From Terriglobia bacterium (lineage in GTDB: Bacteria; Acidobacteriota; Terriglobia; Bryobacterales; Bryobacteraceae), in the NCBI GenBank assembly GCA_020073305.1, contig JAIQFK010000018.1, positions 62,001 through 126,000 on the forward strand: a DNA stretch of 64,000 bases, written 5' to 3'. A program made the translations under genes and the position numbers. Numbering within the stretch: position 1 is the stretch's first letter; each line of letters opens with the position of its first letter. Below are positions 3,888 through 36,583 of the stretch, piece by piece. Below the pieces are notes generated by a model that was not told the DNA's origin, did not search any database, and saw nothing but the letters and a program-made list of their open reading frames with translations.

Positions 3888-4345
3888 TGCAGTTCTGGCG
3901 AATATGCCGCCAGCGCTACGCTGCTGAGGCGGCGCGTGGTGAAGGCGCACGTCTTTATGGCGGTCGCTGGAACCGCCGCGGCGTTGGCGTTGTCTATGCG
4001 TCGACGTCGCTGGCATTGGCGGCGGTTGAAACCTTTGTAAATCTGGAACCAAATCTCCGACCAGCAGATCTCGTCTCGATTGAAGGCGAGATCCCCGAGG
4101 GAGTTGAAATCGGAAGACTTGACGCGAGCACGTTACCACGAAACTGGCACGAAACGCGAGATGAATCCTTGCGCAAATTCGGCGATGAATGGATTCGGAG
4201 TGAACACCGCGTAGCCTTGCTTGTACCATCCGCTGCGATACGCGGAGAATGGAATGTGCTACTGAATCCGGCACACGCTGATTTCTCCAAAATCGATTTC
4301 CGTAATCCGAAACCGTTTGAATTTGACGTCCGAATGTTCAGGTGA
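3887..4345 (+). CDS. RES-domain NAD+-degrading toxin
   Basis: This 152-aa protein is a full-length RES domain. The conserved Arg/Tyr/Glu-Ser pattern is visible: RLYGGRWNRRGVGVVYAS, then SLALAAVETFVN, and near the C-terminus the NVLLNPAHADF motif. Characterised relatives (MbcT, Res) deplete NAD+ by phosphorolysis or hydrolysis and halt growth when the antitoxin is lost. The ATG at 3887 is preferred because it overlaps the antitoxin stop; a TTG one codon earlier is also possible. The pair sits in a scarred accessory segment, consistent with horizontal spread. Confidence 0.9.
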   Translation: MQFWRICRQRYAAEAARGEGARLYGGRWNRRGVGVVYASTSLALAAVETFVNLEPNLRPADLVSIEGEIPEGVEIGRLDASTLPRNWHETRDESLRKFGDEWIRSEHRVALLVPSAAIRGEWNVLLNPAHADFSKIDFRNPKPFEFDVRMFR

Positions 4346-4713
4346 CGAGGTATCAGGCTCTGACGCTCGCATGGAAAAGTAGTTGACGCCGGACACTGGC
4401 TTGGCTCTGCTGCATCTACCAGGCGTTTCGCATCGCGGCGAAGCGGGTATATCACGACACTCATGCACAAAAGCGTCTTGTTGTCGAGCAAGAAGTTGGC
4501 GGTGGCATTCCGTAAAACATTCCGATTGCCATGATCCATTGTTGATCGCGGCCGGATTGCGGCGGCGAACCACTCCGTGGGAAGTGTTGCAACAGCGTTG
4601 AATGGGAAGGTCCTGTGGCGCGTTGGGTGCAATACAGCGCCGAATAAGACCATGACTGTGAGGTAAAGAGCCTCGAACTGCCGGATGAATTGCGCAAAAA
4701 AGCAAAAAAGCAC
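4346..4713. other. Intergenic stretch, no gene seen
   Basis: Open frames here overlap one another on opposite strands and lack ribosome-binding sites or recognisable motifs. The segment separates the toxin-antitoxin pair from the promoter of the TonB receptor and may contain decayed mobile DNA. Confidence 0.4.
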
Positions 4714-18460: not shown

Positions 18461-19327
18461 TCACACACGAACGACCGGGCAGGGGGATTCGCGGATGATT
18501 TCGTATGCGTTGGACCGCAGCCTTCCCAAAGCTTCGTGCATGCAGCCCTGGCCAATCACCACCACGTCCGCCTCGTATTGCATAGCGGCCTTGCGAACGG
18601 TCTCAGCAATCTTCCCGCCTTCTATACAAACTCTGGCGGTGGAGTCGGCCTCCTGCCGTAAATCGTCGATGTAAGCACGCGCGTGGGCGGCGAGATGGCG
18701 GCGGAAGCGCTCGTCGCTGACATGTGTGAGGCCCGCTAGTGCCGGGATCGCATGAATAAGCGTCAATTGCGCCCCGTACGATTTCGCGAATGCCGCGGCC
18801 CAGCGAATTGAGGCTACGGCCTCTGGTCTCGTGTCGGTTGCGCAAAGCACAGACTGGCATCCGGCTCGCAGAAACGACACTTCTTCATGCACGTCTGTCC
18901 ACACCGGGCATTCCGCATCGTGTAGGACCTTCGCTGTAACCGAGCCCAGCAGAAGCCGCCGGAAGGGTCCATATCCATGTGTAGGCATCATGATCAGGTC
19001 CGCGTGCTCGCTGCGGGCGAACTCGGCGATGAGGGTAGCTGGATCGCCTACTTCAAGAACCTTCTCGACCTGTGGAAGGTCCTGGAATTCATGTCGCAGA
19101 TAATCATCGAGCGCGCTTTTCCGTTCTCTCAAGAGATCCGTGATGTCCACGGTCGTCTCAAGCTCGGATGGCACGAGCCCGGCGTACCAGGGAAGAGAGT
19201 TCTGCAAGACATGCACCGCAGTCAACTTGGCATGGAAGTGCCTCGCGAGCGCAGAAACGTGCGAAGCAGCGGCGTTGCACTGCTTGGAAAAATCCACGGG
19301 GAATAGGATGGTCTGTATGCGGAGCAT
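18461..19327 (-). CDS. Tandem universal stress protein (UspA fold, two domains)
   Basis: This 288-aa protein has two UspA domains (about residues 1-147 and 155-288). The first keeps the ATP-binding signature (MMPTHGYGPFRRLLLGSVTAKVL); the second has a degenerate version (VIGQGCMHEALGRLRSNAYEII). Such proteins bind ATP or AMP and accumulate under stress, starvation or hypoxia. It heads a minus-strand run that includes BON, baeRF and pseudo-receiver genes and has a relative at 35609-36583. It shares little sequence with that relative beyond the fold, so the two are not recent duplicates. Confidence 0.9.
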   Translation of the reverse strand: MLRIQTILFPVDFSKQCNAAASHVSALARHFHAKLTAVHVLQNSLPWYAGLVPSELETTVDITDLLRERKSALDDYLRHEFQDLPQVEKVLEVGDPATLIAEFARSEHADLIMMPTHGYGPFRRLLLGSVTAKVLHDAECPVWTDVHEEVSFLRAGCQSVLCATDTRPEAVASIRWAAAFAKSYGAQLTLIHAIPALAGLTHVSDERFRRHLAAHARAYIDDLRQEADSTARVCIEGGKIAETVRKAAMQYEADVVVIGQGCMHEALGRLRSNAYEIIRESPCPVVRV

Positions 19328-19497: not shown

Positions 19498-20043
19498 CTA
19501 CTCCTCTGGCGCCACGCGCAGATTGTTCGTGACGTGATGGGTTGCTTTCAACGCGCGAAGAAAGGCCATGTTCCGATCCGGCTCCGAATCCACGAGTCCC
19601 TCGAGGGTGACCGCACCATCCCTAACGATGATGTGAATCGGAGGGAGTGCACGGGTGCCGTACCTGTCAAGCGGCCGGCTTTCATAGATGGCCCGATACA
19701 CATTCATGCGAATCGCGTCGTCCCGTCTCGATGATGGGAGTACCTCGATCTGGTTGATGACACTGTCAACGCCTTCGAGCCTCTTGACCACACGTTCGGC
19801 ATTTACCTTGACCGTCTCGCGCACGACCTGCCCTGACAGCGTGACAGTCCTGCCCTGCACCTCGAAGCGAAGCGTGTCAAATACTCCCTGGAACGGAAGC
19901 ATGGCGAGTTCTACATGGATTCTCCACTCGAGGCCATCGAGCGTCCTCCCGGCCCATTTGTGCTCTTGTGGGAGGGCGGGGATTGCGGTCAGCAGAATCG
20001 CGCAACCGATTTTGACCAGTTTCAAAGCCAAAGTGTTCTTCAT
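19498..20043 (-). CDS. Exported protein with two BON domains
   Basis: The ATG at 20043 follows AGGAGACG and opens a signal peptide (LVKIGCAILLTAIPALPQ). The 181-aa product has a BON domain at about residues 55-105 (FEVQGRTVTLSGQVVRETVK and VDSVINQIEVLP) and a second at about 110-180 (IHIIVRDGAVTLEGLVDSEP and ATHHVTNNLRVAPEE). BON domains bind phospholipid or other surfaces in the periplasm and are linked to osmotic and envelope stress (OsmY family). Its position between a universal stress protein and baeRF genes supports a stress role. Confidence 0.85.
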   Translation of the reverse strand: MKNTLALKLVKIGCAILLTAIPALPQEHKWAGRTLDGLEWRIHVELAMLPFQGVFDTLRFEVQGRTVTLSGQVVRETVKVNAERVVKRLEGVDSVINQIEVLPSSRRDDAIRMNVYRAIYESRPLDRYGTRALPPIHIIVRDGAVTLEGLVDSEPDRNMAFLRALKATHHVTNNLRVAPEE

Positions 20044-20224
20044 GTTTCGTCTCCTGTTTGGATCCCGGTTTGCGGTGACCCGAATTGACGACATAGGTCA
20101 GATCCGGCTGAAGTCTTCCAGACCTACACGATGGAACACGCGTGCCCCAGCAGCGGGTTTCGTCGTCGGCCTGGGAGCAACGTCTCCACAATACCCTCCA
20201 GTAGTACGCCCGATTCAACTTACT

Positions 20225-21379
20225 TCATGCGGCGACACGATATTGTTCTGCCGGCAGTCTGTAACGCAACAGGCAAGCCGCGCCGCCGAGCTGCAATAGC
20301 CGATCGGAGTGCTCCACAACTTCTACTCCACAGCCGGCTCGTTCGGCCATGCGAACCATCTCTTCCTTAACATCAAAGGATCTCAGCCAACGATAGCCGC
20401 ATTTGGAGCAACCATCAGGCTGCGGACTGCTGACATCCAGCACGCTGCACTTATGACAAGCCCAACCGAAACCTGGCTGGTAAGTCTTTGCCAAGACCAG
20501 TACGTCCACCTGATCGTTGCGTAACGCATCCATGCTGGCAGCCGTGCCTGCAGCCGCGAGGCCATGCGTGTTCAGTTCCCTCCACAGTTTGTCTACTACC
20601 GCTAGCGACTCGCCCTCTTCGTATTCCAGAAACGACTGAAGCGTTGCGGCAACGATGTCTGAACTGTGATCACCAGCGGAGGCGGGGACAACATCGACCA
20701 ACTTCAAAGCAAGATGCTTTGGTAATTCGCGTTTGATGGCACTGGTCGCACGTGAATTTCCTGCAAGAATGATGTGCGCATACCCGTATCTTGAAACGAC
20801 TTGATCAAGCAATCTGATCTGCTCGTGGATGAACTGGCGAGTCCGCTCCCGCCGGTGATTCTGATAATGCTCTTTGGTCCACTCGTGGCCGCTTCGCCTT
20901 CGCAGTTCGGGCCGGGTTTTCCAAATTTCCTCAGTCACGGATCCGAGATTAATGCCCAGAATGTGCGCGCTGTGCTCGGTGGCCAGCAATACAACGTAGC
21001 GGTTGTAGTTGTCCTTGAGTTCGACTAGATCGTAGATGCTCGGCGCTGAGCTGACCGCAATGCGATTCGGAAGGGGAGCGCCAAAAGAAAGCGGGAGAAA
21101 TAGCGGCTGTTCTCCCGCTCGGGAAAAGATTGCCAGGCTTGACGACCCGGCAATCGCGCGCGCTCCCAAAAACTCTTGTATTTTGGCGAGAGCTTGCTCA
21201 AAATCGCGGCGAAGTTCTTCCCGGATGGTCCGGCGCAGTACTTGGACGCGATCGTCGAAGACTGTTCTGTAGTCAGGATCAGAGCTGCAGAGATCCAGAT
21301 AGCAACTGATCACCGGGGAACAGGTCTCCTCCAGTGTCGCTAGCACCAGAATGTGCTGATCGAGTTCGTTTAGTTCCAC
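20225..21379 (-). CDS. Bacterial eRF1-like (baeRF) protein with zinc ribbon
   Basis: This 384-aa protein has the layout of bacterial archaeo-eukaryotic release factor homologues. An N-terminal alpha/beta domain (about residues 1-130) and central eRF1 domain-2-like region (NYNRYVVLLATEHSAHILGI, then RTRQFIHEQIRLLDQVVSRYGYAHIILAGN) lead to a domain-3-like segment (about 275-384) that holds a zinc ribbon, CHKC and CSKCGY. No GGQ peptidyl-hydrolysis loop is visible, as is usual in several baeRF families. Relatives are suspected of rescuing stalled ribosomes or binding RNA under stress. It lies 66 bp after the small membrane protein gene on the same strand, suggesting co-transcription. Confidence 0.8.
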   Translation of the reverse strand: MELNELDQHILVLATLEETCSPVISCYLDLCSSDPDYRTVFDDRVQVLRRTIREELRRDFEQALAKIQEFLGARAIAGSSSLAIFSRAGEQPLFLPLSFGAPLPNRIAVSSAPSIYDLVELKDNYNRYVVLLATEHSAHILGINLGSVTEEIWKTRPELRRRSGHEWTKEHYQNHRRERTRQFIHEQIRLLDQVVSRYGYAHIILAGNSRATSAIKRELPKHLALKLVDVVPASAGDHSSDIVAATLQSFLEYEEGESLAVVDKLWRELNTHGLAAAGTAASMDALRNDQVDVLVLAKTYQPGFGWACHKCSVLDVSSPQPDGCSKCGYRWLRSFDVKEEMVRMAERAGCGVEVVEHSDRLLQLGGAACLLRYRLPAEQYRVAA

Positions 21380-21445: not shown

Positions 21446-21592
21446 TTACTCGAGCAGAAGAATCCCGGTATAAAGAGCGCCAAACGCCGCCACGCTGACG
21501 AACAGTACGGCAATGTACTGAAGCACGCGTTCTGCCAGCGTCGACTGCTGTTTCTCATCACGCTTGATTTCTTCGTCCAGACTGTCGAACAT
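21446..21592 (-). CDS. Small single-pass membrane protein (copy A)
   Basis: The 48-aa product starts at the ATG at 21592, preceded by GGGAGG. It has an acidic/charged cytoplasmic stretch (MFDSLDEEIKRDEKQQ), one membrane helix (LQYIAVLFVSVAAFGALYTGIL) and ends LLE. It is clearly paralogous to the 49-aa protein at 30881-31030: both begin MF-S-L-EEI and share AFGALY-GI--LE at the end. Each lies directly downstream of a pseudo-receiver gene, so the pair probably works together, perhaps anchoring the partner at the membrane. The function is unknown. Confidence 0.75.
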   Translation of the reverse strand: MFDSLDEEIKRDEKQQSTLAERVLQYIAVLFVSVAAFGALYTGILLLE

Positions 21593-21602
21593 AACTGCCT
21601 CC

Positions 21603-22043
21603 CTAATTTGCCTGCTGAGTGGCCTCGACCCCCTTGATCCACGTCCAATTTCGTACCGCCGATTCAACCACTCGAGTCACCTCTGTTGCGTCGAACGGCT
21701 TCGCTAATACGTCGTATCCCCCCAGGTTCAGGACCTCCGCCCAGAGGCGCCCGTCCACGAGTTGTGACGCAACTACAAGGTGCGCCGGGTGTTCGGATGA
21801 TTCCGCTGCGCCGAGGACATGCTTCCAGCAGCCATCCGGCAGGTCCCGATCAGAGATTACGACCGGTACGAAACTTTGAAGAAGAATGTCGCATGCGTCT
21901 CGGCATGTACGGACTCCCAAAAGCTTGAACGTGGGGCTCCCTAACATTCGATCCAGGAGTAAGAAATCTTCTAAAGAGCTGATAACGAGAACCGTCAGGA
22001 CGCTACGTTCGTCTTGGCCAAACTCATTTTTCCAACTCATCAT
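21603..22043 (-). CDS. Degenerate response-regulator receiver (copy A)
   Basis: The ATG at 22043 (or the adjacent ATG at 22040) follows AGGAG. The 146-aa protein is a stand-alone receiver fold. The strand-1 acidic pair is lost (VLVISSLED instead of a DD pair), but an Asp occupies the phosphoacceptor position (D65 in VVISDRDLPDG) and the conserved Lys is present (YDVLAKPF, K115). The last segment (VVESAVRNWTW) is a normal alpha-5. Without the metal-binding pair, phosphorylation is doubtful. It is paralogous to 31048-31506 (shared EVLNLGGYDVLAKP and RDLPDG-WK). The next gene encodes the small membrane protein, 11 bp away. Confidence 0.8.
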   Translation of the reverse strand: MMSWKNEFGQDERSVLTVLVISSLEDFLLLDRMLGSPTFKLLGVRTCRDACDILLQSFVPVVISDRDLPDGCWKHVLGAAESSEHPAHLVVASQLVDGRLWAEVLNLGGYDVLAKPFDATEVTRVVESAVRNWTWIKGVEATQQAN

Positions 22044-22528
22044 TGGGCTCCTTTGCGAGGCGGTCAGCCGGCCCACTTTGCTGCTCTGATTGGGCTGGTG
22101 TGCCTTTTCAATAACGGGTGGAGCAACTGCTTCGCCATCCTCAGCCAATGCCTACTAGGCCATGGATAAGTGAATTTGGTGCACAATCTTGGCTGAAACG
22201 CTGTTCCATTTTGGGTGGGCCTCGTGTGGAGGTGGACGTTTTGGTACAGGGGTACGGCGGAATGCGGCCCTAACATCCGGGTGGATCTAAAGATCCGGCT
22301 CCATTACTCGCTGATGCAGGAGGGTTCCAACGTCTGGCTGTCTCCGCTTCGCAGGCTCAAAGGTCATGGGAGTGCTGGTAGCGGTTGCGAGGAGTTCAGA
22401 ACCGCACCGTGCTTTTGAGGCGAGCCACGTGCTGGTCCAGGTGGCTGGAGTTACATGCAACGAAGGAACTGCGGATCGACGGGCAGTTAAACGTTGCGTT
22501 CCTCCAAAGCTCGTCGAAAGGGTAAACA
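22044..22528. other. Divergent intergenic region
   Basis: This ~485-bp region separates the minus-strand pseudo-receiver operon from the plus-strand metal ATPase gene and must hold both promoters. I see no convincing ORF and could not assign specific -35/-10 elements with confidence. A TTTTGGTACAGGGGTACGG stretch at about 22238-22256 is a possible regulatory site. Confidence 0.35.
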
Positions 22529-24913
22529 ATGAACGCCGCGAAGATGAATCGGGTCACGCTGGTACTGGCAACTTGTGGGATTTCTCTCGGGTTGATCGCA
22601 AGTGTAGCGGAGTTACCAAAAATCGCGGATGCCTCCTGGGCTATCACTACGGCTCTCATCCTTCTACCCGTAACTGTCTCGGTAGTTCGATCTCTCCGGA
22701 GCCGGGCGCTCGGGGTTGACATCATCGCACTCCTGGCAATGTTGGGTGCGTTGGTCCTTCACCAATTCCTGGCCGGGGCGGTGATTGCGCTGATGCTTGC
22801 CGGAGGCCGCGCCCTGGAGGACTTCGCGGAGTCGCGGGCGAAGCGTGAATTGTCGGCGCTCTTACGACGTGCGCCGAGGTTCATCCACCGCTATGACGGC
22901 GACATATTAACGGACGGTGGTGTCGAGGACGTGCGTCGAGGAGACTTGCTCCTGGTTAAGCCCGGCGAGATTGTTCCGGTCGACGGAGTTGTATTCGACT
23001 CGACGGCAATACTGGATCAAGCAGCGCTGACGGGCGAAGCCGTACCAGTGAAATACAATCATGGCGAGCAGGTACGCAGTGGAACCGTCAATGCCGCCCG
23101 CACACCATTCAAACTGCGAGCCATTGCAACCTCGGAAGAGAGCACATATGCCGGTATCATCCGGCTGGTTCGCCAGGCACAGGAATCGAAGGCCCCGCTC
23201 ACACGCCTCGCTGATCGTTACGCAATTCTCTTCTTACCGCTGACCATGGCGGTAGCCGGTATAGCGTGGGCGATCTCAGGAGACCCTGTCCGTGCGCTGG
23301 CCGTGTTGGTTGTCGCGACGCCGTGTCCTCTGATCCTTGCCGCACCAGTCGCGATTGTTGCCGGCATCTCTCGCGCAGCCCGCCGCGGGATCATTGTGAA
23401 AGGCGGAGGGGCCCTTGAGACGCTTGCTCGCGGGAAAACTCTCGTTCTGGACAAAACCGGAACCGTCACAGCCGGAAGTCCAGCCCTCACCAATGTAGAG
23501 TGTTTCGGAGCGTACGACGCTGATGAAATGCTGCGCCTTGCGGCTTCACTCGATCAGGTTTCTCCGCACGTACTGGCAGGTCCCATTGTTCGGGCGGCCA
23601 ATGAACGAGAACTGGCACCTTCCTTTCCAACCGACGTAATCGAGGAACTGGGTGCCGGCATTTCTGGCAAGGTCGACGGGCGAAAGATCGCGCTAGGAAA
23701 GAGCAGTTGGGTCTTACAGGGCGAGGCGCCGCCCCCGCGGCTGCGCCGGCTTCAGCGTCGTCTCATGCTTGAGGGGGCCTCCGGAGTCTTTATATCGGTC
23801 GAAGGCAAGCTTTGTGGAGCGCTGATTCTCGAAGACCCTATCCGTCGCGACGCGCCAATGACACTCCGATCGCTTCGGCGGGTCGGATTCGACAGGATTG
23901 CGCTTCTCACTGGGGATCATGCAGACGTGGCCAAATTGGTAGGCGGCATTCTTGGGGTCGATCAGGTTTTTGCCGAACGATCTCCGGCGGAGAAAGTTGA
24001 GGTTGTGAAGGCCGAGCAGGAGGCGGCAGTAACCGTCATGGTAGGCGACGGTATCAATGATGCTCCCGCTCTTGCCGCGGCAGACGCCGGCGTGGCGATG
24101 GGTGCCCGAGGCGCAACGGCCTCGTCCGAGAGCGCTGACGTTGTGCTTGCCGTCGACCGTTTGGACCGGCTGACCGAGGCCGTCCGGATCGCCCGCCGGT
24201 CGCGAGCGATTGCTCTGCAAAGCATTTGGGCCGGCATGGGGTTTTCCATTGCGGCAATGGGTTTTGCGGCTGCAGGGCTATTGTCCCCGGTTGCCGGTGC
24301 GATTCTGCAAGAGATCATTGATGTAATTGTCATTCTCAACGCGCTACGTGCATTGCGGGGTACACAGTCCAGTGAATTGGCAGACGCCACCGCGGCGCTA
24401 GGAGAACGTTTTCGAGAGGAACATCAGCGACTCCAGCCCGGAATTAAGCGAATTCGACATATAGCGGATCAATTGGACCTGGTGACGCCGGGACAGGCGC
24501 GTGTCGAGTTGTTTGAACTCCACCGGTTCTTGGCCAAAGAGGTCATACCCCACGAAGAAGCCGAGGACACAATCGTTTACCCCACAATTGCCAAGCTAAT
24601 TGGAGGAGACGATCCGACGGCCGTCATGAGCCGGGCTCACCTGGAAATCTCGCACCTGGTCACTGTTCTGGGGCGGCATCTGGAGGATATGATACAAGGT
24701 GGCCCGACGTCAGATGAAATCCGGGAACTCAAACCTGTGCTCTACGGGCTCGATGCCATTCTGCGGCTCCACTTTGCGCAGGAAGACGAATCGTACCTCG
24801 CTCTGATCGAAGCGCGTGCACAGAACCGCACGGAACCAACAGTGGCTGTGAACGTTGAAACCCCTCTGACGACCCTAAGCGCAGAAACTAAGGGGGAAGC
24901 AATTGGGCGGTGA
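22529..24913 (+). CDS. P1B-type metal ATPase with C-terminal hemerythrin domain
   Basis: This 794-aa protein is a heavy-metal P-type ATPase. About eight hydrophobic helices surround the signature elements: TGEAVPVK (actuator), ATPCPLILA (T264-P267, the membrane metal-site motif), DKTGT (D308, phosphorylated Asp) and GDGINDAPALA (hinge). It has no N-terminal CxxC metal domain. Residues ~630-770 form a hemerythrin-like helical bundle with metal-ligand patterns ELHRFLAKEVIPHEEAED, RAHLEISHL and LRLHFAQEDESY. TPCP plus a hemerythrin tail is the hallmark of the P1B-5 group, proposed to export nickel, iron or cobalt. The diiron-type tail suggests iron or oxygen sensing. The start follows AAGGGT; ATG at codon 6 is an alternative. 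Confidence 0.88.
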   Translation: MNAAKMNRVTLVLATCGISLGLIASVAELPKIADASWAITTALILLPVTVSVVRSLRSRALGVDIIALLAMLGALVLHQFLAGAVIALMLAGGRALEDFAESRAKRELSALLRRAPRFIHRYDGDILTDGGVEDVRRGDLLLVKPGEIVPVDGVVFDSTAILDQAALTGEAVPVKYNHGEQVRSGTVNAARTPFKLRAIATSEESTYAGIIRLVRQAQESKAPLTRLADRYAILFLPLTMAVAGIAWAISGDPVRALAVLVVATPCPLILAAPVAIVAGISRAARRGIIVKGGGALETLARGKTLVLDKTGTVTAGSPALTNVECFGAYDADEMLRLAASLDQVSPHVLAGPIVRAANERELAPSFPTDVIEELGAGISGKVDGRKIALGKSSWVLQGEAPPPRLRRLQRRLMLEGASGVFISVEGKLCGALILEDPIRRDAPMTLRSLRRVGFDRIALLTGDHADVAKLVGGILGVDQVFAERSPAEKVEVVKAEQEAAVTVMVGDGINDAPALAAADAGVAMGARGATASSESADVVLAVDRLDRLTEAVRIARRSRAIALQSIWAGMGFSIAAMGFAAAGLLSPVAGAILQEIIDVIVILNALRALRGTQSSELADATAALGERFREEHQRLQPGIKRIRHIADQLDLVTPGQARVELFELHRFLAKEVIPHEEAEDTIVYPTIAKLIGGDDPTAVMSRAHLEISHLVTVLGRHLEDMIQGGPTSDEIRELKPVLYGLDAILRLHFAQEDESYLALIEARAQNRTEPTVAVNVETPLTTLSAETKGEAIGR

Positions 24914-25206: not shown

Positions 25207-26616
25207 TCAAGCGGATGGGTGAATGCCAGGTACATTAGCGTCTTCGCTCTGTTCCTTGTTGATGCCGAATTTTTCCATCCGATAAATGAGAGTACGCCGG
25301 CTAATGTCGAGATATCGGGCTGCCTGCGTCTGATTCCAGTTGAATTTCTCTAGCGCTCTGACGATGAGGTCCCTCTCAACTCGTTCCAGGCTGATGCCGC
25401 CCGGCGGCAAATTCAGTTCAATCGCGTCCGCGTGCGACCGCTCACGCTGGAGGAAGTCAGGGAGGTCGGCGAGCGTAATTTCATCACTCACAGAGAGGAC
25501 CACCAGCCGCTCAATCACATTCTCCAATTCACGAACATTCCCAGGCCATCCGTACCCGGAAAAATGTGGCAACAGAGACGATGGTAACCGGAGTTGTGGC
25601 ACGTTTTGTTTTTGCTTGGCCTTCAAGAACAAGTGCTGGACCAACTCTGGGATATCATCGATGCGCTCGCGGAGAGGCGGCAAGGTCAAAGGGATCACCG
25701 CCAGCCGGTAGTACAAGTCTTCCCGAAAGACACCATCATCAATCAAAGCCTGCAGGTTCCGATTCGTTGCGGCGATGATCCGAACATTTACATTAGTAGC
25801 GCCGGTCGCACCCACTTTTTCGATTTCGCCGTTCTGGATGAGCCGCAGCAATTTAACCTGCAGCTCCAGCGGCAGCTCACCCACTTCATCCAGGAAGAGC
25901 GTTCCGCCGTCTGCAACCTCTACCTTGCCGCGCTTGGGGGCCACAGCACCTGTAAAGGATCCCTTCGTATGGCCGAAGAGTTCCGACTCCAACAGGTCCT
26001 TCGGAATTGCGCCACAGTTGATGGTCACGAAAGCCTGGTCCTTGCGCGTGCTGTTCTGGTGAATGGCTCTGGCCAGGAGTTCCTTGCCAGTGCCGGTATC
26101 TCCAGCGATCAACACCGTAGAATCACGCCGCGCCACTCTGGATGCCATCTCAAGAACGCGCAACAACCCCTTTGACCGGCCGACGATACTCTCAAATCCA
26201 TACTTTTCATCCAAGTTGGCGCGCAGCGTTTTCACTTCAGCTATGAGCTGGCCGCGTTCCATTGCGCGGTTAACAACTAGCATTAATTGCTCGTAATCCA
26301 CGGGCTTGGTGATGTAATCGTAAGCGCCTGCCTTCATGGCCTCGACTGCTGTGGACACAGTTCCAAATGCCGTGATCATGATGACTGTCGTTTCCGGGTA
26401 GGCCTCTCGCAGCTTTCTAAGCAGATCGAGTCCCGAGATGCCCGGCATTTTCAAATCTGTAATCACGAGAGCTGGTGTCGTGTCTTCAATCAACGCGAGA
26501 GCGTCTTGGCCCTGGGCGGCGGCCAGAACCTCGTATCCTGCCTCTTCGAGCTGCATCTGCATCACTCTACGCAGGCTCTCATCATCGTCCACAACCAATA
26601 TTCTCTTTTTGCTCAT
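25207..26616 (-). CDS. NtrC-family sigma-54 response regulator
   Basis: The 469-aa protein has all three NtrC modules. The receiver spans residues 1-120 with acidic pair DDD, phosphoacceptor D54 (VITDLKMPG) and conserved Lys (YITKPV). The AAA+ sigma-54 interaction domain spans ~145-385 with Walker A GDTGTGKE, the sigma-54-contacting loop GSFTGA, and Walker B GGTLFLDEVGELP. A Fis-type HTH lies at ~420-452 (NQTQAARYLDISRRTLIYRM). It should activate sigma-54 promoters when phosphorylated by the overlapping histidine kinase. Likely targets include neighbours such as the TonB receptor or ATPase, but no -24/-12 element was identified. Confidence 0.95.
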   Translation of the reverse strand: MSKKRILVVDDDESLRRVMQMQLEEAGYEVLAAAQGQDALALIEDTTPALVITDLKMPGISGLDLLRKLREAYPETTVIMITAFGTVSTAVEAMKAGAYDYITKPVDYEQLMLVVNRAMERGQLIAEVKTLRANLDEKYGFESIVGRSKGLLRVLEMASRVARRDSTVLIAGDTGTGKELLARAIHQNSTRKDQAFVTINCGAIPKDLLESELFGHTKGSFTGAVAPKRGKVEVADGGTLFLDEVGELPLELQVKLLRLIQNGEIEKVGATGATNVNVRIIAATNRNLQALIDDGVFREDLYYRLAVIPLTLPPLRERIDDIPELVQHLFLKAKQKQNVPQLRLPSSLLPHFSGYGWPGNVRELENVIERLVVLSVSDEITLADLPDFLQRERSHADAIELNLPPGGISLERVERDLIVRALEKFNWNQTQAARYLDISRRTLIYRMEKFGINKEQSEDANVPGIHPSA

Positions 26617-27722
26617 CAGGACCCCGCGCGCTTAAGGGGCAGCACAACAGAAAACGTCGTGCCCCTATCGGGATTGGCCTCCGCCGTCAGAATCCCGCCG
26701 TGCTGTTCAATGATTTGATGTGCTACCGACAAGCCGAGTCCTGTGCCGCTTTCCTTGGTGGTGAAGAACGGGTCGAATATCTTTTCACGGTTCTCCGGCG
26801 CGATGCCGCAGCCATGGTCCTTCACCCGGATAACCACTTTGGAGTGATCATGCCGGGCGGAAAGTACCACCTCGCTGCCGTCTGGTGATGCCTGAATGGC
26901 ATTGATGAGAAGGTTGAGAAGCACCTGTTTTACTTGCTCCGGATCGCCTTCAAGCTCGGGCAAATCTGGCGGAACCTCTTTTTTTAGCTGAATCGGTTTG
27001 CGATCGATCGCGTGGGTAGCCAGGTCAATCACAGAATCAAGAGCTCCGGAGAGTTCAATGGCACGGTATTGGGGCGGTCGCGGACGCGCGAAATCGAGGA
27101 AGCTGGTGAGCAGACGGTTGAGCCGCTCTGTCTCTTTCTTGATAATGCTTAGACACTCGGTTCGCTTGCTCTCGGAGCTGCTGTTGCGCTCGATAATGCC
27201 GGCAGCGCCGGCGATGCCGGCCAGAGGGTTGCGGATCTCGTGCGCGAGACCTGCGGATAACTGCCCCACTGCGTAAAGCCGTTCCACGCGCTTCATGCGC
27301 TCAAAACTCTCCTGGAGTTCCCGGTAAACAGCCGCCAACTGATCGGTGGTTCGCTCCAGGTGCTCTCGTTGTTTTCGTTCGCGCTCTGATAAGATGCCCG
27401 CAAACACTCCCGCTATGCAAAACAGAGGAATTTCCAGAATCTCGTCGATCGCATAATACGGTCCTGCATGCCAGCTCAAGTAGATATAAGGTATGTGAGA
27501 GAGTCCGGCCAGCACCGCTGCGGCGAGTCCCGCAGCCCAACCGAAGCTCAGGGCCGCGACGAGAATTGGCAAGTAGTACAGATGTTGGAAGACGACATGG
27601 CCGTGCAGATCGGATAGCGGCACGAGGTGGTGGAACAAACTGATTGAACAGATGGCAAGCACGACGCTGGTTGCGCGAATGCCGGAATACTTGCTCCGCT
27701 TGGTCGCTGAAGGCTCAGTCAT
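26616..27722 (-). CDS. Membrane sensor histidine kinase
   Basis: This 368-aa kinase overlaps the regulator gene by one base (TGATG) and forms a two-component pair with it. The N-terminal ~110 residues hold about four membrane helices (VVLAICSISLFHHLVPL, YYLPILVAALSFGWAAGLAA, IPLFCIAGVFAGILS) with very short loops, so it probably senses within or at the membrane. A coiled region follows, then HisKA with H161 (GLAHEIRNPLAGIAG) and HATPase_c with N-box LLNLLINAIQAS, G1 DHGCGIAP, F-box FDPFFTTKE and G2 GTGLGLSVAHQII. All catalytic boxes are intact. Confidence 0.94.
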   Translation of the reverse strand: MTEPSATKRSKYSGIRATSVVLAICSISLFHHLVPLSDLHGHVVFQHLYYLPILVAALSFGWAAGLAAAVLAGLSHIPYIYLSWHAGPYYAIDEILEIPLFCIAGVFAGILSERERKQREHLERTTDQLAAVYRELQESFERMKRVERLYAVGQLSAGLAHEIRNPLAGIAGAAGIIERNSSSESKRTECLSIIKKETERLNRLLTSFLDFARPRPPQYRAIELSGALDSVIDLATHAIDRKPIQLKKEVPPDLPELEGDPEQVKQVLLNLLINAIQASPDGSEVVLSARHDHSKVVIRVKDHGCGIAPENREKIFDPFFTTKESGTGLGLSVAHQIIEQHGGILTAEANPDRGTTFSVVLPLKRAGS

Positions 27723-30880: not shown

Positions 30881-31030
30881 CTACTCCAGGAAGCGAATCC
30901 CAAGATAGAGTGCTCCAAACGCAATGGCTGACGCGACGAACACACCCACGTAATACAACCAACGTCGGCCCACGGAGAGGTGTGCTTGATTTTCGCTGCG
31001 TCCGATTTCTTCTTCGAGGCTGGAGAACAT
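30881..31030 (-). CDS. Small single-pass membrane protein (copy B)
   Basis: The ATG at 31030 follows GGGAGGT, giving a 49-aa product rather than the longer open frame. It has an acidic N-terminus (MFSSLEEEIGRSENQ) and one membrane helix (YYVGVFVASAIAFGALYLGI). It is the paralogue of the protein at 21446-21592, sharing the acidic head and the FGALY-GI--LE end, and again follows a pseudo-receiver gene (17 bp gap). Confidence 0.75.
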   Translation of the reverse strand: MFSSLEEEIGRSENQAHLSVGRRWLYYVGVFVASAIAFGALYLGIRFLE

Positions 31031-31047
31031 GTCTGGATACCTCCCTT

Positions 31048-31506
31048 TCAATGCTGACCCACGTTGCCTGCCTTCATAACTCGCTTTCGGTGGTGTTGCC
31101 GCTGACTCCAATTTCGCCAAGCCGAGTCGATCGCCCGCACGACTTCCTTGTGATCCAAGGGTTTTGCCAGGACATCGTACCCGCCTAGATTCAATACCTC
31201 CACCCACAAGTAATCGTCGGCTAACCGTGACGTCACAATCAGATAAGGACGATCGGACAGCGTGTCCAGCGCCTGCAGAATGTCCTTCCAGGTGCCGTCC
31301 GGGAGGTCGCGTTCACAAATGACGATCGATACAGCCCGCTCCCGCAGGATGGCCAACCCCTGCTGACAGGTGCGAACGGCATGTGCTTCGCAGTGGCAGT
31401 CAACAAGGATCCGCGAGAAGCCGATGTGATCTTCTTCGAAAGAACTGATGATCAGGACGGCGGGCTCTCCTGTGGTGCCCGGTTGCATTCGGAGGTAATC
31501 TTTCAT
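31048..31506 (-). CDS. Degenerate receiver with Glu at phosphosite (copy B)
   Basis: This 152-aa stand-alone receiver-like protein is paralogous to 21603-22043. The strand-1 acidic pair is missing (VLIISSFEE), and the phosphoacceptor position carries Glu (E65 in VICERDLPDG) where copy A has Asp. The lysine is kept (YDVLAKPL). A Glu there mimics a phosphorylated Asp, so this copy may be constitutively 'on' and not phosphorylated. The ATG overlaps the stop of the preceding DUF302 gene by four bases (ATGA), showing operon membership. A short basic tail (QRQHHRKRVMK) follows the fold. Confidence 0.8.
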   Translation of the reverse strand: MKDYLRMQPGTTGEPAVLIISSFEEDHIGFSRILVDCHCEAHAVRTCQQGLAILRERAVSIVICERDLPDGTWKDILQALDTLSDRPYLIVTSRLADDYLWVEVLNLGGYDVLAKPLDHKEVVRAIDSAWRNWSQRQHHRKRVMKAGNVGQH

Positions 31507-31937
31507 CGGCTCATCTCCAAACGGTTCTCCTCATTCAAGGAGATTTTTTCCATCGCCTTAACTATCCGAGCTTGGACAGCGCGCAGCGGGAGCATAGCTC
31601 CAGCAGGCAACCTCTTGCTCTGAATACTCGCGGGATTGAGCCAGTAGACCTGAGTACTAGGACCGTCCGCTGAAATGACGATGTGCAATGGAAGGAAGAC
31701 GGCCGCGGACGGATCCAATGCCATGGCCTCTAGTAGCAGCAGTGGGGAGTCGACGCAGAGAATGCGGCACGGGGCAAGATTCATTCCCGGTTGTCCACGG
31801 GCGATGTCGGCTACATCGAATTCTCGGGATATGCGCAAATCCTCATGGAACAGCGCGCTGCGAATCACTTTCAATGCTGTTTCAAAGGGAGCCGCGATCT
31901 CTCGCCGGTTTTCGATTGTTTCTCCGTTCCTGACCAT
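31503..31937 (-). CDS. DUF302 family protein (copy 1)
   Basis: The ATG at 31937 is chosen because GGGAGGG precedes it, giving 144 aa. The core (ETALKVIRSALFHEDLRISR, FDVADIARG, CRILCVDSPLLLLEAMALDP, AVFLPLHIVIS) matches DUF302, a small homodimeric alpha/beta fold often found with stress and thiol/redox genes. Its activity is unknown. The stop overlaps the pseudo-receiver start. It is a diverged paralogue of the protein at 32284-32700 in the same operon. Confidence 0.75.
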   Translation of the reverse strand: MVRNGETIENRREIAAPFETALKVIRSALFHEDLRISREFDVADIARGQPGMNLAPCRILCVDSPLLLLEAMALDPSAAVFLPLHIVISADGPSTQVYWLNPASIQSKRLPAGAMLPLRAVQARIVKAMEKISLNEENRLEMSR

Positions 31938-31965
31938 TTCGCCCTCCCGGAGTCTTTCCGGGCAA

Positions 31966-32241
31966 TTATGGGTCCGTTTCAGTGAATATCGGGCGTGGAC
32001 GTACTTTAGCTTCACTATCCAGGGGCAGTTTCGCGCGACGCGACCAGTTCGATTTCTGCCTGGCCCAGTCCAGAAGCGTTTTCGCCCAGGAGAAATGACT
32101 GCTTAAAATGACTAGGCCCAGCAGAACGATGGGAATTCCTGGTCCTGGGACCCCCGGGATCGCGAGGATCAATCCGACGGACATGAGTAGGAACCCGGTA
32201 ACTACTCTCAACTTTCTACGAGATCTGAGAAATCCGACCAT
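31966..32241 (-). CDS. PGPGW-type small membrane protein
   Basis: This 91-aa protein has a basic N-terminus (MVGFLRSRRKLR), a long hydrophobic hairpin (VVTGFLLMSVGLILAIPGV, then IPIVLLGLVILSSHF) and the turn motif PGVPGPG between them, as in the PGPGW/TIGR02611 family. A charged C-terminal tail follows. It lies between the two DUF302 genes with ~30-40 bp gaps, so it belongs to the same operon. Function unknown; probably inner membrane. Confidence 0.75.
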   Translation of the reverse strand: MVGFLRSRRKLRVVTGFLLMSVGLILAIPGVPGPGIPIVLLGLVILSSHFSWAKTLLDWARQKSNWSRRAKLPLDSEAKVRPRPIFTETDP

Positions 32242-32283: not shown

Positions 32284-32700
32284 TCAAGGTGTTAATTGGC
32301 AATAGCTACGTTGCATTGCGATTTTCTCAATGGCCCGAGAGACCTCATCCTGGAGTCCGTTCACAGCGGAGGCCAGCGGATCGCAGCCGTTAGACGGCAA
32401 GGAAGCCAAGAGGTGGATTTCCGTCTGCTCGCCGCGAGCCGAAACCACAAGGTGCAGCGGAAGGAAGATCCCAACCGCGGGACACACATTGATGGCCTCC
32501 AGACTCGATTGCTTGGAGTAGACATACAGAACTCTGCACTGAGCCATACCGATGCCGAGACTGCGCTGAATTCTGGCGGAAATGTCCAGCTCTCCCAGAA
32601 CACTTAGCCCGGAGCGGGCCAGCGCCGCTCGAATGAGCTTCAGCGCGACGTCGAACGATTCCGGAATCGAGTAAGTGGTTGCCGCCGTTTCGCCAGTCAT
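32284..32700 (-). CDS. DUF302 family protein (copy 2)
   Basis: About 138 aa from the ATG at 32700 (a GTG two codons upstream is possible). It has the DUF302 pattern: SFDVALKLIRAALARSGLSV, LDISARIQRSLG, CRVLYVYSKQSSLEAINVCP and VGIFLPLHLVVSARG. It appears to be the first gene of the minus-strand operon DUF302, PGPGW, DUF302, pseudo-receiver, small membrane protein. The two DUF302 copies share the spacing of a Cys before the VLYV/ILCV strand, which could be functionally important. Confidence 0.75.
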   Translation of the reverse strand: MTGETAATTYSIPESFDVALKLIRAALARSGLSVLGELDISARIQRSLGIGMAQCRVLYVYSKQSSLEAINVCPAVGIFLPLHLVVSARGEQTEIHLLASLPSNGCDPLASAVNGLQDEVSRAIEKIAMQRSYCQLTP

Positions 32701-33004
32701 AGACACCCGGCCGTTTCACTTGTAATGAGGCAATTCCGTGGCCAATCAGTGCGCCGCTATCTCTTCCGGCGAAAATTTCGCGTTATATAGATGATCCGCT
32801 ACTTCACCATGTACGACGACGCTAGTGTCCGTTTTAGGTGATATGCAGGTCCAGCCGACACTGTTTTGGAACACCGTTCACCTGCCAGCGACGTGAATTG
32901 GTTTGAGCTTGCAACACAAGGTGTGGAAAGTAACGTGCTCGGGATGTACAGGTCGACGTGCACGGAGCTTTGGTGCACGACCGAGAAATTGCGGAGCCAA
33001 AACG

Positions 33005-33706: not shown

Positions 33707-33759
33707 ACGCTTGCCGGCAACTGGCAAATCGATTGCAAGGTTTACGAATTGGAGGTCCC

Positions 33760-33990
33760 ATGGCAAGATTGCACAATTCCAAAGAAAGAATCCGCATTGC
33801 CGCCAATGGCGGTGCGGGTGTGGCTATCGCGGAGCCGGCCCACTCGAGTGATCTCGAGGACCAGGAGGAAGTCGCGAGGCTTGCCTATTCATACTGGCTG
33901 GCTCGCGGTTGCCCGGAAGGTACGCCGGAGGAGGACTGGCTTCGAGCGGAACAGGAAGTGCGGCAGCAGCACAAAACAACGGTGAAATAG
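33760..33990 (+). CDS. DUF2934 small protein
   Basis: This 76-aa protein starts at the ATG at 33760, just after GGAGGT. It carries the DUF2934 signature (EVARLAYSYWLARGCPEGTP then EEDWLRAEQEV), a short helical motif widespread in Acidobacteriota and Proteobacteria stress loci. The function is unknown. It follows the sigma factor gene by 54 bp and may be in its operon. Confidence 0.8.
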   Translation: MARLHNSKERIRIAANGGAGVAIAEPAHSSDLEDQEEVARLAYSYWLARGCPEGTPEEDWLRAEQEVRQQHKTTVK

Positions 33991-35608: not shown

Positions 35609-36583
35609 TCAAGCTGCGTGGACTGACTCCAACGAATCCAGCTTCACCGGCGTTACAAACGCATCGGGTTTCACAGTCAAAACCGAACAGTTCACCTGAC
35701 GCAGAACCTTCTCGGCGGTGTTGCCGATAAAGAACCCCGCGACGCCGGTACGGCACACGGTACCCATCACGATCACATCGGCCCTTTTCCTCTTAGCCAT
35801 GGCGGGAATGAGATCGCCTGCGTCGCCGTCCAACAGATGTACCTGATGTCGGACATCATCTAAAGGGCACTGCTGCAGCAGCTCATCCAGGCGTGACACA
35901 TGCTCCTGCTCAACATGGGCAACCATTCGTTCCATATTGCCGCGCGACAATCGAGTGCCAAGGCTGGATATTTTCGAAGCGTTCCACGCGTGGACTACGT
36001 AGAGCTCGCTTTGCTCGGCTCGTGCGAGCGATGCCGCAAGCTCGATGATCTTAATGTTGAGCGCGTTGAGCTTCCGATCGGATGGGTGCGGATCTACGGC
36101 TGCCAGTATTCGGGCACAGAACTTGCCGTGTGCTGGTTTAATGACCCAGACGGGGCAGGGGCACTTGCGCATCAGATGTATAGATGTGCTTCCAAATAAT
36201 GCGCCCGTAAGTCCACTCTCGCCATCGGCCGTCATCATCACGAGGTCGTGCTGATTTCGCAGTACCTCGCGAATGATTTCCAGAAAGGGAGTACCCCGGA
36301 GAATTCTGGTCTGGACTTCGACGCCCGCATCCCGAAGTGGCGCAATCAGAGTCTCCAATCGCCGAAGGTCTTCCTGAACCATCATTTCTTGAATCCTAAT
36401 TCCGTGAAGATCTGCGCAGCGTCTCTCCGGAATACCAGCGTCGGCCTCCGGGACCGACTCGACAACACACACCACAGTGAGCAGTGCCCGGTTTCTCAGC
36501 GCCAAGCCGGCTGCTCGCTCAAATGCCGCGTCTTGTTTATCTGCGCTGTCCGCGACCACGAGAATGTTTTTGAATCTTCGCAT
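35609..36583 (-). CDS. Tandem universal stress protein (UspE-like)
   Basis: This 324-aa protein has two UspA domains (about residues 1-155 and 160-310). The first has a partly altered nucleotide loop (MTADGESGLTGALFGSTSIH), the second a near-consensus one (VMGTVCRTGVAGFFIGNTAEKVL). Double-domain USPs bind nucleotide and support survival under hypoxia, starvation or DNA damage. It is the intact survivor of a duplicated gene whose other copy is the remnant at 34532-34718. The ATG follows a GGAGGAG-rich leader (GAAGGAGGAGCCCC), a strong ribosome-binding site. Confidence 0.9.
   Translation of the reverse strand: MRRFKNILVVADSADKQDAAFERAAGLALRNRALLTVVCVVESVPEADAGIPERRCADLHGIRIQEMMVQEDLRRLETLIAPLRDAGVEVQTRILRGTPFLEIIREVLRNQHDLVMMTADGESGLTGALFGSTSIHLMRKCPCPVWVIKPAHGKFCARILAAVDPHPSDRKLNALNIKIIELAASLARAEQSELYVVHAWNASKISSLGTRLSRGNMERMVAHVEQEHVSRLDELLQQCPLDDVRHQVHLLDGDAGDLIPAMAKRKRADVIVMGTVCRTGVAGFFIGNTAEKVLRQVNCSVLTVKPDAFVTPVKLDSLESVHAA

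Follow-up and report, generated by a model that had tools for sequence, protein, structure and literature searches.

Two receiver and peptide pairs in one window

The window, by which we mean the whole stretch of 64,000 nucleotides analysed here (positions 62001-126000 of contig C12, in a genome of 6.98 Mb), carries two copies of a gene pair in which a receiver-like protein is followed by a very short protein with a predicted membrane helix:

21446-21592, minus strand: small membrane peptide 1, 48 residues, modelled as a helix at the N-terminus (2-15) followed by a long one (19-47)
21603-22043, minus strand: pseudo-receiver 1, 146 residues, with SS for the acidic pair and with the phospho-site Asp, Ser and Lys present
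30881-31030, minus strand: small membrane peptide 2, 49 residues
31048-31506, minus strand: pseudo-receiver 2, 152 residues, with SS for the acidic pair, Glu at the phospho-site, and Ser and Lys present

The stop of the receiver gene lies 10 bp (pair 1) or 17 bp (pair 2) from the start of the peptide gene, and the longest open reading frame for receiver 1 starts at 22148. Peptides 1 and 2 are 52% identical and the two receivers 43-49%, depending on the alignment. The sequence-only reading had placed the same receiver and ~48-residue single-helix pair at 21446-22043 and 30881-31506, and both copies are confirmed as paralogous and minus-strand; its observation that the strand-1 acidic pair is absent from both receivers (SS for DD) and that EVLNLGGYDVLAKP is present in both likewise holds. 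A detail beyond that reading is the phospho-acceptor, which is Asp in receiver 1 (SDRDLPDG) and Glu in receiver 2 (CERDLPDG). Segmental duplication of the pair within the window was considered and is unsupported, the two receivers not being sisters on a tree of weak support.

The genome holds a third peptide copy, on contig C3 and without a receiver, which is preceded by genes for a universal stress protein, a cytochrome c and a 94-residue hydrophobic protein and followed by a DUF4342 gene (locus L022, 3462-5560; other loci are numbered in the same way), with a sigma-54-like site before the first gene of the row. A fourth peptide place, on contig C16, is a weak match only (E 0.001-0.004). Around and between the two pairs of the window lie the following features:

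18461-19327, minus strand: universal stress protein, sigma-54-like site TGGAAGGCGGCTTGCA 25 bp upstream
19498-20094, minus strand: BON-domain protein
20225-21379, minus strand: baeRF family 10 protein, directly after peptide 1; it follows the peptide also in L083 and L116
22122-22137, minus strand: weak sigma-54-like site TGGCGAAGCAGTTGCT, ending 78 bp before 22043 (receiver 1), p = 0.09 against shuffles
22529-24913, plus strand: P-type ATPase with a C-terminal hemerythrin domain, 68% identical to the ATPase directly after the peptide in L111
25207-26616, minus strand: NtrC-type response regulator, 63-76% identical to those of six other cassette loci
26616-27722, minus strand: histidine kinase, 47-64% identical to those of six other cassette loci
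31503-32015, minus strand: DUF302 gene a, overlapping the start of receiver 2 by 4 bp, with a profile-estimated start near 31943
32284-32706, minus strand: DUF302 gene b, sigma-54-like site TGGCCACGGAATTGCC 22 bp upstream
35609-36583, minus strand: second universal stress protein, sigma-54-like site TGGCCGAAGAATTGCC 25 bp upstream, score 16.5

Two gene orders can be read from this arrangement. The first set runs DUF302, DUF302, receiver, peptide, a TonB-dependent-receptor-like gene (labelled so from reading the ORF alone), kinase and NtrC; the second runs receiver, peptide, baeRF10, BON and universal stress protein, with the ATPase on the opposite strand.

The receiver and peptide families

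Pfam Response_reg recognizes receiver 2 (35.4 bits against a cut-off of 30.2), with receiver 1 staying below the cut-off at 18.7 bits. A relation to the receiver fold is nonetheless found with a 7-sequence profile, which matches 106 PDB sequences at E <= 0.001, the best solved relatives being an XynC-titled receiver (from the fold search) and the NtrC1 receiver. A modest structural model, built from 3 sequences with a mean pLDDT of 70.8 and with a low-confidence strand in place of helix 4, has a REC domain as its best Foldseek match (E 5e-6). At E <= 1e-20 the family has 213 matches, summed by table over 72 positive genomes among 101 Bryobacteraceae, or about three per positive genome. Across a phylum sample (n=396), with 9 candidates scored per genome, it was seen only in this genome and one other.

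We aligned 41 family receivers (this genome's 7, the 4 paired ones from elsewhere and 30 from the 29 best-scoring loci) with two ordinary receivers of the window, assigning key residue positions by CheY numbering, which we take to apply here; the sample consists by selection of stand-alone short proteins, frames >= 320 aa being left out. The first position of the acidic pair is acidic in none of the 41 (S 31, T 5, G 4, F 1) and the second in 3. At the phospho-site 31 have Glu, receiver 2 included, 9 have Asp, receiver 1 included, and one has Ala. Ser or Thr fills the Thr position in 37 of the sequences, and 31 retain the Lys. One subgroup on a long shared branch (L009, L145 and L156) combines Thr at the first acidic position with Asp at the phospho-site.

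By published definitions (PMC12632262, PMC4395418), as given in the parts of these sources considered here, both window proteins are, by sequence, pseudo-receivers: the acidic pair is gone in both and the Asp in receiver 2 alone, so that receiver 2 is also aspartate-less, whereas receiver 1, which keeps its Asp, is a pseudo-receiver but not an aspartate-less one. The suggestion that phosphorylation is not used in the usual way is thereby strengthened, since an acidic residue missing in 41/41 and Glu for Asp in 31/41 make ordinary phosphorylation of these receivers unlikely. The same portions of the two sources describe Glu as the commonest Asp replacement in aspartate-less receivers, and place Acidobacteria next after the highest phylum per complete genome for pseudo-receivers and aspartate-less receivers. 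The receiver fold, the lost phosphotransfer residues and the Glu for Asp are thus shared with the window family. Published aspartate-less receivers, however, are reported generally to keep the first residue of the acidic triad (65%), which is non-acidic in 41/41 here, and they differ further from this sample of stand-alone short proteins in that 9/41 of the latter, receiver 1 included, still have the Asp.

The peptide is a conserved coding family of 123 distinct members with a length near 48 (distinct sequences from the loci examined, exact duplicates dropped). Nineteen close pairs of members differ at 94, 43 and 309 sites in codon positions 1, 2 and 3, an ATG start is found in 89/89 coding sequences of exactly 147 nt, and GGAGG or AGGAG lies within 25 bp upstream in 101/107; by this third-codon-position bias, the ATG starts and the ribosome sites, the peptide is more than a chance reading frame. 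The family occurs in 73/101 sampled Bryobacteraceae genomes and 56/76 genera (E <= 0.01). A named GTDB set of peptides, found with one N-terminal pattern, comprises the best 80 of 111, and nearly all of its records carry Bryobacterales, Bryobacteraceae or Acidobacteria in the title. Phylum-wide matches outside Bryobacteraceae (16 genomes, and 4 in a further search) are membrane stretches, most of them in long frames, and were left uncounted. At most 17 candidates per genome were scored for the peptide and 9 for the receiver, and because these are few, claims of absence are weak for both families.

No Pfam or NCBIfam family covers the peptide in a search with 61 members, and no MgrB family is among their matches; DUF5671, DUF5326 and other weak Pfam matches in a few members were rejected. 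The model (pLDDT 87.5) has two helices, 2-15 and 19-47, with hardly any residues beyond the long one, by which the peptide is predicted to be a short single-pass membrane protein with one long hydrophobic helix; we take its N-terminus to be oriented inside. An identical peptide and neighbourhood is present on two contigs of genome G476 (L254 and L255), either a recent duplication or an assembly artefact.

Pairing and the stress cassette

A receiver lies within 500 bp of the peptide in only 6/123 distinct peptide loci, and a peptide beside 6/213 receivers in 72 genomes, the pairs having been found from the peptide side with 83/88 peptide places examined with wide flanks (the remaining five being four from other genomes and a weak one from this genome). 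The six pairs are the window's two and those of L084, L111, L117 and L120, in five genomes of five genera; the order of receiver and peptide is reversed in two of them (L084 and L120), and the spacing is 15 bp in L117 and 73 bp in L111. No peptide of the family was found near 21 receivers at 20 other high-scoring loci or near this genome's 5 other receivers, so that the small ORFs, whose absence beside homologous receivers the sequence-only reading had named as evidence against it, are missing for most. At the receiver locus L284 an unrelated 76-residue hydrophobic frame adjoins the receiver. The pair is missing from the other two species of the genus: in one of them nothing matches the peptide, and in the other there is just one hit, a weak one at E 0.0026. 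What stands of the proposal that conserved pairing marks a functional unit is that four further genomes, each of another genus, also carry the pair, with paired receivers somewhat clustered; the dedicated unit itself is not borne out by the 6/123 and 6/213 paired, the 2/6 in reversed order and the genus's other species. With about three receivers and one peptide per ~6 Mb genome, we infer a rough chance expectation well below one pair in the whole set, so that the pairing is non-random, yet not required.

Peptide copies occur in two main settings. In 76/123 loci a convergent glucosaminidase-like gene faces the peptide, and an NtrC gene, mostly from another pair (CHASE2-kinase/NtrC), lies directly upstream of it in 28/123, 25 of which also face the glucosaminidase-like gene. 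The row of CHASE2 kinase, NtrC regulator, peptide and convergent glucosaminidase-like gene, as at L075 (2673-6181) and similar loci, recurs across Bryobacteraceae. The core glucosaminidase-like protein gave no match in the three genomes of the genus, in a search without a positive control. In 11/123 loci the peptide lies among receiver, DUF302 or baeRF genes; this second context contains all six pairs and never shares a locus with the glucosaminidase context among the 123; the 33/123 loci in none of the three classes include some that end at contig ends.

The genes that keep returning in this second context are a histidine kinase, NtrC, one or two DUF302 genes, the receiver and the peptide, followed by the hemerythrin-P-type ATPase or baeRF10. 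Relatives of the window kinase and NtrC are located in L111, L117, L258, L266, L326 and L330; the next-best NtrC among the peptide loci searched reaches 47% (L120) and the rest <= 41%, and L084 has a 51% kinase relative 5 kb from its peptide. L111 reads in one direction kinase, NtrC, DUF302, DUF302, receiver, peptide, ATPase, and L117 kinase, NtrC, DUF302, a DUF302-like frame (no Pfam match), receiver, peptide. Other loci hold one partner: L116 (DUF302, DUF302, peptide, baeRF10), L266 (DUF302, peptide, kinase, NtrC) and L258 (peptide, kinase, NtrC, DUF302) are all without a receiver, and these gene orders support a view of receiver and peptide as frequent but separable cassette members. L330 reads kinase, NtrC, DUF302, DUF302, receiver and then a 16-residue remnant of the peptide before a stop; this remaining start of the peptide after a full cassette's receiver (4316-4400) suggests a loss of the membrane part.

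Trees of the two families, both of low support and the peptide one resting on 48 columns, agree with this picture in part. Cassette-context peptides cluster, with 5 changes against a shuffled mean of 10.7 (0/500 shuffles as low). The six paired receivers, set against all rows, take 4 changes against 5.7 (14/500) with two ordinary receivers in the tree and 3 against 5.7 (0/500) with these taken out, whereas a comparison with only the five other receivers of this genome (3 against 3.8, 167/500) is not informative for the family. Starred branches force at least two changes among the paired receivers, with L120 apart. For the most part, then, the receivers have moved together with the cassette, and at least once a receiver joined or was lost on its own. 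Clustering of both paired receivers and cassette peptides is expected if both travel with the cassette. On the best reading of these gene orders, the paired copies would belong to an accessory Bryobacteraceae stress cassette and not to a dedicated two-part machine, a reading dropped as the main one because pairing is rare in both directions.

Several known systems resemble parts of the cassette, as far as the portions of the sources considered here describe them. The low-oxygen-activated (lxa) locus of Burkholderia cenocepacia is likewise a stress island, in which a BON protein and a cytochrome c accompany universal stress proteins (PMC6127331); the part of that account considered here holds no receiver/peptide pair, whereas the window adds a kinase/NtrC pair, sigma-54-like sites, baeRF and DUF302. 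The ATPase at 22529-24913 is like the P1B-5 ATPases with a C-terminal hemerythrin-like domain (PMC9388753), by domain layout. No title or abstract opening found in the open-licence literature describes the combination of receiver, peptide and cassette.

A possible sigma-54 circuit

RpoN is encoded in the genome (PF04552 match, E 3.5e-57), and sigma-54-like sites were scored with hand-written weights for the sigma-54 consensus. The best site ends 0-55 bp before 12/13 cassette DUF302 genes, which come from 8 loci picked for carrying cassette genes (five loci giving two genes each), in a band fixed after the site positions were seen. By the same measure the controls gave 8/41 glucosaminidase-like, 3/16 core NtrC, 4/17 core kinase, 4/61 peptide and 1/11 other DUF302 genes, and site scores in the band, chosen post hoc, separate the cassette DUF302 genes from the first three control sets (Mann-Whitney p = 7e-8). 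Singly, the sites of the window's DUF302 genes are not significant: TGGCCACGGAATTGCC of gene b is equalled in 29/200 shuffles, and the weak site of gene a (score 15.5) in 56/200. TGGAAGGCGGCTTGCA, before the universal stress protein at 18461-19327, is matched by 1/200 shuffles; universal stress protein genes with such sites are the window's two and the one before the third peptide copy.

For the receivers, a site score of >= 17 is found in 6/28 against 4/79 control genes (Fisher p = 0.019), and TGGCGAAGCAGTTGCT of receiver 1 is uncertain because of its p of 0.09 against shuffles. Strong sites near the start are also present at three non-cassette pseudo-receivers (L278, L272 and L271, scores 20.0, 18.5 and 18.0), and within the window a strong site, TGGCAAATCGATTGCA, lies at 33722-33737, 22 bp before the likely start, near 33760, of a small DUF2934 gene. 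A sigma-54 promoter directly before the peptide was considered and rejected, 5/107 loci at p <= 0.05 being no enrichment. Site density is higher in cassette loci, at 11 in 92.6 kb against 21 in 571 kb, with 5 of the 11 from L266, and genome-wide the exact pattern shows no excess (25 matches against 21 for the reversed control).

Our preferred reading, held tentatively and at less than even confidence, is that the pairs are parts of a stress cassette run by its dedicated kinase and NtrC through sigma-54, the receiver being a mimic of the NtrC receiver and the peptide a membrane modulator. What can be read from the DNA is which genes the cassette comprises and that they recur, the changed active site of the receiver, the hydrophobic helix and the sigma-54-like sites; the functional steps are conjectural. 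The cassette's histidine kinase and NtrC-type activator would control the cassette through sigma-54 promoters. The receiver, which has NtrC-type receivers among its nearest solved relatives but has lost its acidic pair and usually has a phospho-mimicking Glu, would act as a phosphorylation-independent mimic of the NtrC receiver and dock to the kinase or to an effector. The 48/49-residue peptide would sit in the membrane and modulate a membrane protein beside it, the cassette kinase being the likeliest, in the way MgrB acts on PhoQ. Induced by the circuit, the two would in turn trim what it produces, and would be separable outputs of it rather than a fixed two-protein complex. Counting against the circuit is the phospho-Asp that receiver 1 keeps, and most family receivers lie outside the cassette, so that NtrC mimicry need not be their general role.

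The analogy invoked here is with MgrB, a 47-residue inhibitor of the kinase PhoQ (PMC8404706), and in the part of that source considered here the likeness is one of similar length, a membrane helix and repeated adjacency to two-component genes. Unlike MgrB, the peptide lies near NtrC-type systems and has hardly any residues after its long helix. By this analogy the peptide may feed back on the kinase. A broader form of the preferred reading is rather unlikely. In it, Bryobacteraceae peptides would modulate NtrC-paired kinases in the membrane, and the cassette would add a phosphomimetic receiver that stands in for the one of NtrC, so that a single sigma-54 circuit would receive feedback through two arms.

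Only slightly less likely than the preferred reading is that receiver and peptide are mere neighbours sharing a stress cassette. The peptide would then serve in the membrane under envelope stress in general, and the receiver would be an orphan adaptor partnered elsewhere. The peptide without a receiver within 500 bp in 117/123 loci and the receiver without a peptide in 207/213 are what such independence would give, as are the one-partner cassettes (L116, L258, L266, and L330 with its 16-residue remnant) and paired receivers that do not form one group, with at least two changes forced and L120 apart. The core peptide copies facing a glucosaminidase-like, and thus cell-wall-enzyme-like, gene in 76/123 loci fit it too, and to judge by this neighbourhood the peptide may have an envelope role. 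Set against this, close pairs number six and come from five genomes, each of a different genus; the paired receivers cluster beyond chance (3 changes, with 0 of 500 shuffles as low, or 4 changes, with 14 of 500, where the shuffled mean is 5.7); and the peptide is repeatedly located beside NtrC two-component genes in both contexts.

A dedicated unit, with the peptide as a membrane anchor that recruits the pseudo-receiver to the membrane, would explain the short gaps between the two genes (15 bp in L117 and 73 bp in L111, besides the window's 10 and 17 bp), the single long helix with a charged N-terminal helix and some clustering of the paired receivers; low co-occurrence in both directions, the reversed order in L084 and L120, the one-partner cassettes and the pair's absence from the genus's two other species make it quite improbable. 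That receiver 1 is still phosphorylated, the pair being an ordinary response-regulator operon, is very unlikely: the Asp kept at its phospho-site and its Ser and Lys would allow it, and SS without an acidic pair for Mg2+ binding, together with Glu at the phospho-site in 31/41 sampled relatives, receiver 2 included, argues otherwise.

How bacterial pseudo-receivers switch on and off is described as a mystery in the part of PMC12632262 considered here. Bryobacteraceae carry about three pseudo-receivers per positive genome, with the first acidic residue uniformly lost and Glu frequent in the aligned sample. Some of these pseudo-receivers lie inside a defined kinase/NtrC cassette, together with a peptide family that has no Pfam or NCBIfam entry, which gives them specific, testable partners.
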